This document shows positions 4,434 to 43,780 of a stretch of DNA of 43,780 nucleotides, piece by piece. Below the pieces are notes generated by a model, which worked only from the letters and a program-made list of their open reading frames with translations, did not search any database and was not told the DNA's origin. The stretch covers positions 81,449 to 125,228 of the forward strand of contig JAHBMJ010000620.1 in assembly GCA_018398765.1 (NCBI GenBank). Reading direction: 5' to 3'. Source of the stretch: Chromera velia (Eukaryota; Sar; Chromeraceae). The number at the start of each line of letters is the position of its first letter. Within the stretch, counting starts at the first letter, position 1. A program made the position numbers and the translations under genes.

Positions 4434-6423
4434 ATGAGGTTGTCATCAAAGTGCCTCTTTGCGAAGCTTCTCTATGTCCTGCTGGGGGGCATAGAGGCAT
4501 TTCGATTAGATTCCTCCTCTTGGTTACCCGCCTCCGCACGTCTTCGTAAATCATGGCTGCAAGACGGAAGAGCTTTGCCGTCTCTGACGAAGTTGAAGGC
4601 TTTGCCGGAAAGAGAAAGTGATGGGGGAGGGTCCAGGCGTCTTGTGAAGGCCCGAGAACTTCTAGATGCTGCAGTAATGAAAGGGCGGGGTCAGTTGTGC
4701 TTCCTGGGCTGAGTGGGGTTGTGCAGAAGACATGAAGAGGAAACAGACAAGAAGATAAAGGATCTGCTTACTTACCATCGAAGAGAAGCGTCAACGAACG
4801 CACATTTCCCCTCCTCACCTATTTTCCTGCCCCTCTTTCAGCTCAACTTCTCTTGCTCTTCTGCTTTTTTCTTGCATGCCTCAAGCTGCCCCTTCCCTGC
4901 CTGCTTCCTCCGCCATCTTCTGACTCAGCTTCCATCCATAGCAGCTTCGGCTTTCCGATCCCCCCTTCAAATAATTCGTCTGAATCCTTCAATTCCCAGC
5001 TGCCCACCTTGCTGAACCGATATTTCATGCACGTATGTACCCCCTCCTTCAGGTTCCGAGCCGATGCTGGAGCCCTCTGTTCCCTACGACCCCACCAAGG
5101 CAGCAGAGCTGTTCAGCCAGAGGCCGCTCCAGGTCTCCAAGAGGCAGGTGGAGCTGGTCACACCGCTGGCGAACTTTATGGCTCGTGTGATTCTTGACAT
5201 TCAGTCGGGCAGAGAGAAGGAGAACAGACGGAAGAGGGCCCAGGAGCTTCTGGCGCTCATCTCGAACCTTGGTTGGTCGGTTGGTTGGTTCGTTGGTTTG
5301 TGAATTGGTCCATTTGTGGTGCTTGGTCTGCCAGTCAGTCAGTTAGTCAGACTCGGGGCGGGCACGAAGGAAACTCTAAGTGCACACGCCGCACTTACAG
5401 AGGCATGGAAAGGGCAGGAGTCTAGAGACAGACCCACTGTGCGAAAACATCGAAAAAACTTCTGGAGAGAAAAAAAAAATCCCCCCCCCTGTCTGCAGGT
5501 CCTGCCATCATCAAGGCGGGCCAGGCCCTGTCTTCTCGTCCCGACCTTCTACCTGCTGAGTACCTTGAAGAGTTGCAGAAGCTTCAGGACAGACTGCCAC
5601 CCTTCCCTACACCACAAGCCTTTGCAACAATCGAGGAAGAACTCGGAATGACAATTGACGAGGTCAGACCTAGATCACAACTAAGAAGCAAGCAGGCGGT
5701 TCCATTGTGTGGAGCGAAATGTTCTTTCGATTTGCCGGTCTACTTTCCAGCTCTTCCCTGCACCTTTTTGTTTGTTTGCAAGCTTTCTCTCTAAGTTTCT
5801 GTCCGTTTGACGAAGCGCTGGAGAAACAGAACGCGCCAACGGAAAGACGAATGCCGTTGCTGCTGGCCTCAACTCAATCAAGCGAATATGGACACAATAC
5901 TCCGACGGCCTGCAGATCTTTTCCGAAATCGACAGCGAGCCTGTGGCGGCAGCTTCCATCGGGCAGGTGTACAAAGGGAGGCTCAGAAGCAACGGGCAAC
6001 AGGTGGCGGTGAAAGTTCAGAGGCCAGGCTGTGAAGAGCAAATCGGGATTGATCTGTTCATCCTCAGGTCTTACTCTCAGGTCGGTGGGTGGGTCCTTGG
6101 CAGGCAGGGAGGGAGGGAGGCTGTTGGATTGGGTCTGCGTGTTTGGTTTTCTGTCTTGCCCTTCTCTTTTTGTTGTGTTCTCTTGTTTTTCTGGATGGTC
6201 CACTGGACATTTCTTTTTTCCCCTTCTGATCCTTCCAGTCCCCTGTTGCTTTCGTCTTTCTTCGTTTACGCACATGTCGGTTTGTTCATGGTTCGGACCC
6301 ACAGCTCCAACAAGAGACTCTGCTTAGTCGTTTATTTTGGATGGCAGTGGTGGGGCTCTACATCGGGCACTTGTCTGCCTCGCTCCTTCCCTTCTCTCCT
6401 CTTGTGTGTGCGCGTCTGGGTGT

Positions 6424-6458
<35 letters not shown>

Positions 6459-8006
6459 CCTCTGGCGTGTCCTCTTGTTTGCCTCCTGGTGTCCGTTCAG
6501 GTGTTTACGGGCCTTCTGAAGGCCGTGCGCCGTGACTTGGACTTCGTCTCCGTGATTGATGACTTTGGGAGACTCATCTACGGGTAGGTCGGTGGATAGG
6601 GGGGTGGGTGGAGGGCATCTTCGGAGAATGTTTTGGCAGTCAATGGTTCCTCACACTCTCCCACTTTGTGAACTTCTTTCTTTCTTTGTCTAACACCGTC
6701 AGTGTTCAGTCCCACAAAATTTTGCATCTATGTATCTGTGTGCGCTTGTTTTTATCAATATCTATCTGTGCTTTGGTACTGGCCTTTGTGCAGGGAGATA
6801 GACTATCTTCTTGAAGCCAACAACGCGAAGAAGTTCAATGAGATCTACGCCCTCTCTTCTCAAAACGTCACTGCACCCATTGTCTACGAAGCCTTCACAA
6901 CCAAAAAGGTCAGTCAAAAGTCAAAATTGTCTTGCAACAAAATCAGTGAGCGAAGAGCCGATGCAGGCTCTGACCCTGACCCGCCCGGGAGGGATGAGTC
7001 GTTGAGTCACATCCCCAGAGCGAATCGAGATGTGTGCGAGCGTGTTGAAGCACTAGATGACGAAATGGGCAGAGGCTTTGACTCAGATCACCAAAAAAGA
7101 CGCCACACACAATTTCTGGGACCTTGTGTGTCTGTTTTTTTTGTTTCTTCCTGAATTCAGGTCTTGATGATGGAATGGGTCGAGGGATTCCGACTGACGG
7201 ACAGCGCTGCTCTGGAGCGACTGGGTTTTGATAAGACGCAGCTTGTCAACACCCTTGTGGAGGTGAGTGAGTGAGTGAGTGAAGACTTAAGAAGTATATG
7301 GAAGGAAGGGGGGCAACGGCTTCTGTCCCCCCATAGTTTTTTCTTGAGGAGCAAGAAGACAGTGAGTGTACACACAGGCACAGAGAGCTAGAGAAAGGGA
7401 GGGAAAATGGCAAAATTGAAAACCGATCAAGAGTCCGAGGAAGGAAGGCCTGCATGGTCCTCCGTTGCCTGGTCGGGTCGTTCTTCTCAGTCACTCCTGT
7501 TCGTTCCACCGGGCCTCTCTCCCTCTTCCTTCTTTCGTTCGTTCGCTCGGCTGATGGTCCACTCTCCCTTGTGCTCACTCACCTCTCGTCTCTCTCTATC
7601 TCTCCCTCTTCTTCGCATTTGCTTTCAGTGCTCTTTCCGACAAATTCTCGACAACGGGTTCTTCCATGCTGACCCTCACGCGGGCAACCTGTTCGTGAAC
7701 AAGAGGGGGCAGCTTGTCTACCTCGACTTCGGCATGATGTCCTATGTGAAGCCGAACCAAAGGTAGGTATGCAGGGCGGCCTTTGCGAAGGGCAAACAGT
7801 TTCAGAATGTTGTAACATTTCTTCGGTTTTTTGTATGCATTCTGGAAGAACACCACGACGGTCTCCCATTGACATCGGTCGGTCACAGGGGCATCTCACC
7901 AACCGTGCGCCTACTTTTCTGCTCATTGCCGGTTCTCTCTCATTCACTCATCGCCTTCTGGAGTTCTCCCCTCCTCTCCTCTCCTCTCCCCTCCTTTCCT
8001 CTTACT

Positions 8007-38814: not shown

Positions 38815-39440
38815 TATGAAAGACATGCCGCTGCCTGAGCAAAGAATGAAAGAGGTACAGTCATGTTGCTGACTGAGTAGAGGATGGAAAAGACAGAGAC
38901 ATGTTGCTGACTAAGTGTTAGAGAATGAAAGAGGTGCAGTTATGTTGCTGACAGAGCAGAGAGTGAGATAGATGGAGCCAGGCTGCTCCCTATGCGGAGA
39001 ATGAGAGAGGTGCAGTCATGCTGCTATTTGAACTCAGAATAAAAGAGGTGTAGTCGTGCTGCGGCCTCAGCAAAGAATGAAAAAGGTGTAGTCATGCTAT
39101 TCATGGAGGAAAGAATGAAAGAGGTACAGTCATGCCGCTGACTGAGCAGAGAGTGAAAGAGATGTCGACATGCTGCTGCTTGCATAAACAAAGAATAAAA
39201 GAGGTGTGGTCATGCTGCTGATAGAGCAGAGAGTGATATAGAGCGAGCCACGCTGTGGCCTGAGCTGAGAATGAGAGAGGTGTAGTTATGCTGCTGCTTG
39301 GGTAGAGAGTGAAAAAGGTGTAGTCCTGATACTGACTGAGCACTGCCAGAGAGTGAGAGCGATGGAGTCATATAGCTGACTGTGCAAAGAATGGATAAAA
39401 GAGGTACAGTCATGCTGCTGCCTCGGCAGAGACTAAAAAA
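38815..39440. repeat. 38-bp minisatellite, about 16 degenerate copies
   Basis: The unit is roughly GAATGAAAGAGGTGYAGTCA followed by TGCTGCTGACTGAGCAGA. Units start near 38846, 38884, 38925, 38963, 39000, 39039, 39076, 39113, 39151, 39193, 39231, 39269, 39307, 39351 and 39389. The period is mostly 37-39 bp, with a few longer units. Alternating units are more alike than neighbours in places. The period is not a multiple of three and stops interrupt all frames. Confidence 0.85.
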
Positions 39441-40295: not shown

Positions 40296-40641
40296 AATTC
40301 GAGTCTTCACTCCCTCAAGCATCAAGCAGGAACCTCCAGATTGGAAAGAGCTGGTTTCGGTTCCCGCCTTCGTTTTGAGCAGAAAGGAGAGAAAAGAAAA
40401 GGAAACGAAACCACCCATAAATGTTGATAAGCACGGTCGTCGATCACGACAGAGAATCAACGCTCAGCGACCTTCCGTACACATGCATGCACAATGATCC
40501 ATATCCAACTCCCCAGGCTTCTTGTCTCTCTCACTCAATCATTTCACCATTCACTCATCAAACCCACGCAGCCGTCTCGCTGCATGAGGAATTCGAATTC
40601 CGCGTTGTCTCTTCCCTGTCTCTCCTTTCTTTCCCCACCCC

Positions 40642-42293
40642 CTACTGCCCCCCCTGAGAACGAGCAACAACCAACACAGTGCCGACTGCTGCAGCCAGAG
40701 CTCCCATGGCGAGGGCACTTCGGTTGCGTCTGGCCCACTTCAGGCCGTTGTTCACCCCCCCAATCGCATTGTAGAAGTACACAGCGAACCACGCATTTTG
40801 GTGATCGTTGGCGTCAACCACCCGAGTGATCATCTGAAAAAACGACGCGACCAGCACACCGTCAAGGGCCGCGCCGACACCGTCGTGACTTTCCACCTCC
40901 ACACGCGCCGCCCTCATTTCCTCCCTATCGAACGGCGCCTGCACAACCGCTCTACCCAGACGCTCCAGTCTCTCCCGTCTCGCCTTATCGGCACCAGACT
41001 CCTCCAGGCCTGCCGCGAGGTCCCTGAAGGTCTGGTGCCCATCGTGTCAGTAATCGCAGGCCACGGCACCGGCAGCAGCCTCTGCCAGGACCTCGATCTC
41101 CGTGCGAGAGAGGAACCTGTCGTCTGGAGCCTTCGCTTCGCCCACCAATTGCATGATTGCATGACCATCTGTGGTGGGATGTAGAAGAGGCTACAGAGGC
41201 GAAGCAAAGCTGCCAGGTTGCCAGGTGTCAGAGTCGGACCCGCAAAAGGAACAATGGAGATCGGGATGGACCTGCGTTTCAAAAACAAAAGTCCATTCCT
41301 TCAAGAATGTGGACTTGTGAAGAAAATTTTGGACCTTGAATTCGCGTCAACAGGTAACAGAAAAAGAAATAGCCTTTCTACGAAAGGACGAAGGGGTTTG
41401 GAGCTGCATCAACAGACGGCGGGTTGACTACTTACTTCCCACACCGGAAATCTCGGAAAAGAAGAGAAGTATAGTCTTCCTGTCGACAAGCTAAGAAGAT
41501 CACGATTTTCATGCCGTCGTTCAGCTCAAGGTCAGAGAAGAGAACGAAAAATTCCGATCGAAGAAGAGCACAGACAGACGCACGTGCATACTTACCTAAT
41601 CGCCCACGCTTCCTCAGAATCTTTCGGAGCGAAACCCGGGCGTTCATTTCCGGACAGCACCAGCGGCATGCGGTCCCACTCGACGCGTGTGAGGCGCTTG
41701 GTCCAGGAGGCAAGCAGGTTGCGCGGTGGAGCACTTTTTTTGACGTCATCGGGAATGGAAAGAGAAGGAAAAGGCGGAAGACTGTCGGAGGAACAGTCCA
41801 ACGCTGCGAGTGCACTCTGGATGCCGTTAGTCATTGCAACCACGCCCACAAGGTCTTCGAATGCGGTACAGAGATCATCCCTACCCAACCCAAAGGTTTC
41901 AGGGAAACTCTGCTGAGAGGAGGAGAGACGGGAAAGGACCAGCTCAAACCAGTCGGGTTGTTTCACTTTCGCATTCAGGTTCACAATCGAATATGCGAAG
42001 CACATCAGAAAGGCGTCGCGATCGTTTGCAGGAAGCTTCCCTGCCAGTTTCCCTCCCTGATCTCTCTTGAAAAATTTCTCCCAATACTCGCCTTCCTTTC
42101 CGGGGCGAGGACAGACGTTCTTCAGAGACGCGCAGGTCAGACACTCACGTGCTCCCCAAGTGTACTCTGCAAGACGTTGACGAGTCTGCTGGTCGAACCA
42201 GTTTCCATGCCGAGAGATCAGATCCTTCCACACCTCCAAAGCCTCGTCAACAGCCCCGTGTCGAGGCTGCCGACTGGCCGCTCCAGGTGTCAT
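40642..42293 (-). CDS. Tandem AhpD-like (CMD-domain) membrane-anchored protein, probable selenoprotein
   Basis: Three exons, 42293-41596, 41479-41436 and 41168-40642, join in phase (ATTAG|GTAAGT, GGGAA|GTAAGT) and give 422 residues if TGA at 41049-41047 is read through. The stop is TAG. The second domain shows the AhpD/carboxymuconolactone-decarboxylase pattern: a helix FLSRTEIEVLAEAAAGAVA, then C-D-Y-[TGA]-H-D-G-H. The TGA replaces the second cysteine of CxxCxxxH. About 135 more codons follow in frame, including helices like GVGAALDGVLVASFFQMITR. AhpD-type proteins are thiol peroxidase-related; the CxxC pair does the redox chemistry. The first domain (residues about 20-180) has a similar fold signature but a degenerate motif (CLTCASLK, no His). 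The C-terminus has a hydrophobic segment (ALAMGALAAAVGTVLVVA) that could anchor it in a membrane. Alternatives are a recent nonsense mutation or an unseen small intron. Confidence 0.75.
41047..41049 (-). other. In-frame TGA, candidate selenocysteine codon
   Basis: TGA lies between TAC (Tyr) and CAC (His) in the AhpD-like motif, three residues after Cys and four before His. This is the exact position of the second catalytic cysteine. Four other genes in this window, including the CEP120-like and Kazal genes, appear to use TGA as stop, so general reassignment to an amino acid is unlikely. Confidence 0.65.
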
Positions 42294-43320: not shown

Positions 43321-43780
43321 TGCCTTTCCCACAGCGTTCGTTCTCTTCTACCTCCCAAATACCTTGGAGGTCCCTCTTTTCAGGTTTCCTCTTCGCCCCT
43401 CGTGCAGTTTTTTCCCAATGGTGTTCGCTGTCGGCCTCTAATTGATTTCTTCCCTTCAGTCTCTCATTGACACTTCCGCTCCATTTCTTGATCCTGCCTG
43501 TTTACTTGTTGTGACCTCCATCTCTTGATCCTGCCTGTTTACTTGTTGTGACCTCCATCTCTTGATCCTGCCTGTTTACTTGTTGTGACCTCCATTTCTT
43601 GATCCTGCCTGTTTACTTGTTGTGACCTCCATTTCTTGATCCTGCCTGTTTACTTGTTGTGACCTCCATCTCTTGCTCCTGCCTGTTTACTTGTTGTGAC
43701 CTCCATCTCTTGATCCTGCCTGTTTACTTGTTGTGACCTCCATTTCTTGATCCTGCCTGTTTACTTGTTGTGACCTCCAT
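42859..43780 (+). CDS. SS18/GIF-like (SSXT domain) chromatin-remodelling subunit, partial
   Basis: Exon 1 (42859-43052) starts MDVEEDVQAAIDRLWKNGL and contains ASAQRLLDENQQLIFAVSEN followed by KRFADCAA. Exon 2 (43142-43196) gives YLERLQQNLLYLALLADQ. Joined in phase (GC|GTGAGT to GTGCAG|A), they form the SSXT (SNH) domain of human SS18 and plant GRF-interacting factors: a helix with LLDEN and LI, then a conserved QxNLxYLAxxAD end. SS18-type proteins are subunits of SWI/SNF (BAF) remodelling complexes and transcription co-activators in the nucleus. A third exon may start at 43335 after TTCCCACAG, but its end is unclear. The rest, usually a Gln/Met/Pro-rich tail, should lie beyond the right edge, past the 37-bp satellite. 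The start is head to head with the AhpD-like gene. Confidence 0.8.
43275..43321. repeat. CT microsatellite in SS18-like intron 2
   Basis: About 20 CT units just upstream of the proposed acceptor at 43334, likely acting as the polypyrimidine tract. Confidence 0.85.
43481..43780. repeat. 37-bp tandem satellite running off the right edge
   Basis: About eight nearly identical copies of a unit reading TTGATCCTGCCTGTTTACTT then GTTGTGACCTCCATYTC. Differences are few (mainly C/T at one site, one GATC to GCTC), so the array is young or homogenised. It lies inside or just after the SS18-like gene, probably in an intron. Confidence 0.95.

Follow-up and report, generated by a model that had tools for sequence, protein, structure and literature searches.

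Chromera velia, a eukaryote, very probably has a gene whose product is a two-domain AhpD-like selenoprotein with a hydrophobic segment at its C-terminus, a distant relative of the NCBIfam family NF041238; the gene is one of two copies found in the genome. It lies on the minus strand of the stretch of DNA analysed here (43,780 nucleotides of contig JAHBMJ010000620.1, called the window below), close to the contig end (the assembly comprises 178 Mb in 4040 contigs). An intron, the size of the genome, and SECIS-like elements in 3' UTRs are in line with a eukaryotic origin. Selenocysteine (Sec) at its in-frame TGA is a strongly supported reading and by far the best one, and the use of Sec by the AhpD-like gene family of this genome is very likely, judging from sequence. 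The evidence readable at that level consists of a TGA and a SECIS-like element in two copies, the family affiliation, a predicted fold, other Sec genes, and a tRNA-Sec. The window copy is laid out as follows, in window coordinates.

41596..42293, minus strand: exon 1, an open frame with bacterial-family homology, encoding the N-terminal AhpD-like domain with ECLTC
41272..41595, minus strand: intron 1, 324 nt, GTAAGT..CAG; the intronless second copy is continuous across the site
41165..41271, minus strand: first part of exon 2, in the first frame, with the conserved GPT..FYIPP and 14 of 24 residues as in the second copy
41169..41239, minus strand: 71-nt stretch readable as a second intron, judged coding from its match to the second copy
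41149..41164, minus strand: two tandem units of 8 bp, each TCATGCAA, where the frame changes, seen in the sequence; the 16-mer occurs once in the window
40642..41148, minus strand: second part of exon 2, in the second frame, with the catalytic AhpD domain and the C-terminal segment; homologous, and open except for the TGA
41092..41094, minus strand: Glu codon, possible proton-relay Glu, 12 residues before the motif Cys
41035..41058, minus strand: active-site motif C-D-Y-U-H-D-G-H, aligned with CFYUTxxH of the bacterial family
41047..41049, minus strand: in-frame TGA, predicted Sec, in the column of the second catalytic Cys; likewise TGA in the second copy
40663..40719, minus strand: candidate tail anchor, a hydrophobic segment at the C-terminus; highest Kyte-Doolittle mean over 19 residues 2.13 (2.34 in the second copy)
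40310..40389, minus strand: SECIS-like hairpin in the 3' UTR, with its ACGA core at 40373-40370, 269 nt past the stop

The open frame of exon 1 has its first ATG at 42293, shares 57% amino acid identity with the second copy over the 219 codons compared, and is homologous to the bacterial family at GtWwtGaeR..ArdCalC. Intron 1 is supported by the second copy, which lacks it and reads straight across. The single TGA in an otherwise open 174-codon frame (41166-40645, minus strand), reported in the initial annotation, is seen in the sequence; the frame continues past it for 134 further codons, up to the terminal stop of the gene (TAG at 40644-40642, minus strand). This TGA had been assigned to the place of the second Cys of the AhpD CxxCxxxH motif, and C-D-Y-TGA-H-D-G-H can indeed be read there and aligned with the bacterial CFYUTxxH. 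The candidate relay Glu is invariant in all 39 rows of alignment A1 (see below), and the Glu74-Cys86 spacing that the accessible text of one study gives for YP_296737.1 (PMC4674687) equals the spacing from Glu to motif Cys in the window protein.

Elsewhere in the window, an open frame at 5811-6587 (plus strand) has an ABC1 atypical kinase-like match (E 9.7e-18), and scanning five other long frames gave no Pfam match at E<=0.001. Overlapping arrays of 38-bp tandem repeats (63-68% matches) occupy 38830-39295, downstream of the AhpD-like gene, and a minisatellite of 37-bp units (8.2 copies, 97% matches) at 43479-43780 reaches the contig end.

The second copy, found at G000:C2346 (locus L149) by a genome search with the window protein, is 54% identical to it over query residues 7-161 (E 3.3e-44). 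It is intronless and runs for 431 codons from ATG to TAA, with one TGA as its sole in-frame stop-like codon, located at the same codon as in the window copy and within the motif CDF-TGA-HDGH. At the column where homologs were to be inspected for Cys or Sec, this copy therefore also carries TGA, and no Cys codon. Differences between the two copies at codon positions 1, 2, and 3 number 9, 6, and 21 before the TGA and 57, 43, and 87 after it, a purifying pattern on both sides (pS 0.71 and pN 0.26 before; pS 0.82 and pN 0.34 after). A scan of the genome contigs with the joined protein matched 13 stretches, none of which was confirmed. A further hit, L150 (E 0.07), was rejected because it is of low complexity and every one of its three frames contains stops.

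The closest family of both copies, and their best NCBIfam match, is NF041238 (AhpD_rel_CFYUT, 'alkylhydroperoxidase-related (seleno)protein'), which matches both exons of the window copy in collinear order. The joined model (a first gene model of 418 aa that omits the 71-nt stretch; the match to L045, the HMM-piece scores, and the hydrophobicity score of the window protein given in this text rest on the same model) reaches 38.1 bits (E 1e-9) and the second copy 42.8 bits (E 3.8e-11). Both remain far under the curated cut-off of 175 bits and are, therefore, distant relatives; the CFYUT motif of the family name is absent, the window copy having CDYUH and the second copy CDFUH. Pfam PF02627 (CMD) scores 9.7 bits in the window against a gathering score of 23, leaves the second copy unmatched at E<=1, and has no match in the genome at E<=0.001. 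Two features of the AhpD/CMD superfamily, the AhpD fold (here predicted) and CxxC/UxxxH, are present. According to the available text of a review, NF041238 corresponds to the Sargasso Sea 'hypothetical protein 1', a CxxU protein listed among prokaryotic selenoproteins (PMC13188914). In its accessible part, the 2005 Sargasso study presents four sequences of this protein, without functional evidence (PMC1088965), and a GOS study, likewise in its available portion, assigned its shared families to bacteria (PMC2398784). The occurrence of AhpD-like selenoproteins in bacteria, mentioned in the initial annotation, agrees with NF041238 and its CxxU.

Bacterial relatives were collected by searching the DNA of bacteria and archaea for the pattern C-F-Y-TGA-T-x-x-H, a search that returned at least 120 loci. 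The pattern used one set of codons and demanded C-F-Y-TGA-T and the His beforehand, so the conservation of these letters in the set proves nothing; some of the frames, short ones such as L043, L066, and L073, are plainly chance matches. The long two-domain length is shown by 66 of the 120 loci among the matches listed. Reduction below 60% identity left 45 of these 66, and 38 of the 45 entered alignments A1 and A2; L026 and L068, which look short-type, stayed out, and L100, L105, L124, L131, and L137 were dropped to keep the alignments small. NF041238 matches all 38 members scanned of the 45 non-redundant ones. Among the 120 listed matches, the best for the window protein is L045, from a Candidatus Hydrogenedentes MAG (E 5.5e-12), aligned at positions 21-60 and 145-365. 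No phage, plasmid, or viral relative was matched, also with the bacterial alignment as the query.

An HMM built from the 66 long members matches the joined protein in three collinear pieces (E 3e-10, calculated, as for the parts below, on a one-sequence database or with the size set to 1), the middle piece being weak (-0.4 bits). Scored separately against the same HMM, the part downstream of the TGA reaches 20.9 bits, where the highest of 500 shuffles has 12.2; the part upstream of it reaches 9.6 bits, only just above the 9.4 bits of its own top shuffle among 500. Since each part outscores its shuffles, the similarity crosses the TGA, and the coding similarity described earlier on both sides holds, narrowly so for the upstream part.

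Like the NF041238 proteins, the window protein combines two collinear domains, a similar length, CxxU and His in the C-terminal domain, and the invariant Glu, while differing in being eukaryotic, in having a SECIS-like element in the 3' UTR, and in its C-terminal hydrophobic segment. The layout had been considered a possible new architecture; its two domains are in fact those of the bacterial family. A degenerate AhpD-like domain is present, as had been noticed, but it is the N-terminal domain that is degenerate, and not a second one. The C-terminal hydrophobic segment is the only part extra to the bacterial layout. It occurs in both copies; of the 66 long bacterial members, one reaches 1.6 (Kyte-Doolittle, last 60 residues). 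The membrane anchor proposed at this end, thus, stands as a hydrophobic segment added to the bacterial layout; as an anchor, it is a candidate.

The catalytic domain is predicted to adopt an AhpD-like fold. It shares this predicted fold, the CxxC/U..H motif, and the Glu spacing with AhpD and peroxidase-related AhpD-fold enzymes (6k40, 2prr, and M. tuberculosis AhpD), from which the window protein differs by Sec in place of the second Cys, an extra N-terminal domain, and the C-terminal segment. Searching solved structures by sequence returned two chains, with a best E of 0.47. For the bacterial relative L045 (2088-3206, plus strand), the full-length model has Sestrin2 as its best match, across both domains, suggesting a possible link between the NF041238 family and the Sestrins. 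Human Sestrin2 differs, with 9% identity, and the CxxU of the window protein sits in the C-terminal domain, whereas Sestrin2, as described in the available text of PMC4674687, has a catalytic N-terminal domain (Cys125) and has lost the C-terminal motif. The Sestrin Pfam domain was found neither in the window pieces (E<=10) nor in the second copy and L045 (E<=1).

A SECIS element had been anticipated downstream on the minus strand, and a hairpin lies there, at 40389-40310, though its score for the Rfam SECIS_1 model is below gathering. In-frame TGAs were found in four genes of this genome, the two AhpD-like copies, SelT, and SelM, and their hairpins have ACGA..AAA..GAT in common. The ACGA-core elements are located as follows.

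40373 of the window, minus strand: AhpD-like window copy, 269 nt from stop to element
729 of L149, minus strand: second AhpD-like copy, 730 nt from the stop
2494-2545 of L008: SelT, 532 nt from the stop
1241 of L145, minus strand: SelM, 230 nt from the stop

The four elements follow a common plan, namely ACGA, one base, a 10-position helix, one or two bases, AAA, a loop, the other arm, and NGAT. Standard pairs fill 10 of the 10 helix positions in each AhpD-like copy, 9 in SelM, and 8 in SelT. Double changes at all 10 helix positions among the four genes mix unrelated genes, so that only the AhpD-like copies inform covariation: between these, four helix positions changed on both sides and two on one side, with 10/10 pairs kept. 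The window hairpin folds with z values of -2.57 and -2.09; the SelT element is not much better than its shuffles (-1.17 and -1.49).

Rfam SECIS_1 matches the 3' UTR of the window copy at 40371-40316 (minus strand) with 20.4 bits (E 2.3 for 4227 families, about 5e-4 for the single family asked) and that of the second copy with 23.4 bits, both missing the gathering score of 35. The model has no match at the SelT or SelM loci, and none genome-wide at E<=1. A descriptor scan covering the window plus 957,251 bases of loci returned three hits and no others, namely the elements of the window copy, SelT, and SelM, from which the descriptor itself had been drawn; as a null, 150 simulated windows yielded a hit in one. 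In the second copy, ACGA is preceded by T, and the element there was seen by eye and matched once the descriptor freed that base. The relaxed version returned 15 rows with at least 7 pairs in 1,007,682 bases (some loci overlapping), and 5 rows with at least 8 pairs, four of them in the 3' UTRs of the TGA genes and the fifth at a bacterial locus, L085. Within the window, a looser descriptor allowing 12 cores found the ACGA element plus two AGGA hits (1114, plus strand; 3947, minus strand), and an element pattern written after two elements were known gave one match against 0.03 expected. R1, a model derived from the elements of the window copy and SelT, finds the element of the second copy (21.3 bits, E 0.0012), the sole element scored held out, by Rfam SECIS_1 as by R1, and misses that of SelM. 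Its other weak matches are in L019 (12.1 bits, E 2) and in L144 (18.4 bits, E 0.055), the latter rejected as it lies, on that strand, upstream of an MsrA stretch and outside its 3' UTR.

The geometry of the window hairpin, with a GA/GA core, a helix of about 10 pairs, and an apical AAA, is that of a SECIS, with ACGA as core letters. With eukaryotic type II SECIS elements, it shares the position in the 3' UTR, the tandem G.A/A.G, the helix, and the apical AAA; it differs by ACGA instead of AUGA, in all four elements, and by the sub-gathering Rfam score. Toxoplasma elements have GGGA at the core position. A whole-word literature search for SECIS and ACGA found no report. In the accessible text of a review, AU, rarely GU, precedes the first GA of SECIS elements (PMC13188914), a rule from which the ACGA core departs.

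The Sec machinery was to be checked in the genome, and a full-length tRNA-Sec with anticodon UCA was found (69.4 bits). Six weaker matches to the tRNA-Sec model (38-43 bits) are located at G000:C3304 (L004, L005, and L007), C3563 (L002), C2426 (L003), and C3792 (L006); the three on C3304 are close together, and these are perhaps other long-arm tRNAs. Three stretches of a single contig match SelD, and its presumed Sec/Cys site is occupied by Cys. SelT has an in-frame TGA in CTS-TGA-GFR and SelM in CSG-TGA, presumably the sites where Sec is expected. One SelW-like gene, two of the four GPx-like stretches, and two MsrA-like genes have Cys at the positions assumed to be their Sec sites; the active-site stretches of the other two GPx-like matches show neither Cys nor TGA. 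The proposal of Sec at the second CxxC position, thus, gains from the TGA kept in the second copy, the SECIS-like hairpins, tRNA-Sec, SelD, and the TGA-containing SelT and SelM.

The integrity of the window copy requires a separate discussion. The frame change at the 8-bp repeat may reflect an assembly error, a variant allele, or recent damage to the gene, which would make this copy a young pseudogene. It is quite possible, if somewhat short of probable, that it is a young pseudogene or null allele, only the second copy making the selenoprotein: comparison with the second copy shows the stretch ahead of the repeat to be coding, and the reading frame shifts at TCATGCAA-TCATGCAA, ahead of the Sec codon. 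Against this, the window copy has no other stop or frame break, its SECIS helix retains 10/10 pairs, and its coding pattern is kept; an assembly error would give the same picture.

The frame could also be restored by removing the 71 nt at 41239-41169 as a second intron, yielding a protein shorter by about 23 residues, and the two upstream exons described earlier as joining in phase do so only if this stretch is cut out. Its GT..AG ends and pyrimidine-rich 3' end are compatible with splicing, but the 5' site, GTCCGA, looks weak, and the stretch looks coding. Together with one adjoining residue, it reads GPTLTPGNLAALLRLCSLFYIPPQ against GPTITPENLAVMLKLAHLFYMPAT in the second copy, with 14 of 24 residues identical, an identity reached by none of 100,000 shuffles; differences at the three codon positions number 7, 6, and 18, i.e., 18 of 31 at third positions. 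It also contains a Tyr aligned with a Tyr that is invariant in the 38 bacterial rows of A2. A second intron is, therefore, unlikely. Both of these readings concern the window copy only and leave the Sec reading of the gene family untouched.

Two further readings bear on the TGA itself. The frame break already carried by the window copy might suggest an AhpD gene of the Cys type whose TGA is a plain stop or results from mutation or faulty sequencing, but this is very improbable given the same-codon TGA in the second copy, the homology beyond it, and the SECIS-like hairpins in both 3' UTRs. Reassignment of TGA to Trp or another residue in the nuclear code, to which in-frame TGAs in several genes could point, is hardly credible: each of those found falls at an expected Sec site of SelT, SelM, or one of the two AhpD-like copies (a presumed site for SelT and SelM), Trp is encoded by TGG (7 in the second copy, 8 in exon 1), and the matched stretches of the SelD, GPx, and MsrA families are without TGA, one MsrA stretch having TAG.

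Under the preferred reading, that of a Sec-containing AhpD-like enzyme, we infer from these sequence features how the protein may be decoded, what it may catalyze, on which substrate, and where. The type-II-like ACGA hairpin in the 3' UTR is proposed to recruit the Sec machinery, so that tRNA-Sec would insert Sec at the in-frame UGA. A Glu-His relay would activate the Sec of C-x-x-U for attack on an alkyl hydroperoxide; the Cys three residues ahead would then close a selenenylsulfide, to be reduced by a cellular thiol partner. The anchor would place the enzyme at a membrane.

In PMC, no report of a eukaryotic AhpD selenoprotein was found by title or abstract start, most subscription papers lying outside PMC, and combining Chromera velia with selenoprotein gave nothing related by title. 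The main text of 'The algal selenoproteomes' (PMC7539508) leaves AhpD, alkylhydroperoxid-, and carboxymuconolactone unmentioned. Within the reach of these searches, two things are new, namely a bacterial selenoprotein type with a branch in eukaryotes and the shared ACGA SECIS core. A broader, more tentative proposal is that this lineage may read a changed ACGA SECIS core (C.U for U.U beside the tandem G.A) throughout its selenoprotein genes (four of the four found), presumably with an adapted SECIS-binding protein, and that a family of two-domain AhpD selenoproteins, which would be structurally a sister of the Sestrins, may have its eukaryotic branch here.

The eukaryotic selenoproteins would gain a type described from bacteria, present as two gene copies, one of them with an intron, and equipped with eukaryotic-style SECIS elements, a case relevant to the passage of selenoprotein families between domains. 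With an ACGA core in four elements of one genome, the core letters needed by the SECIS-binding protein become directly testable. Moreover, the Sestrin2-like predicted fold of the bacterial relative, with CxxU kept C-terminally, may offer a model for a redox-active ancestor of the Sestrins.
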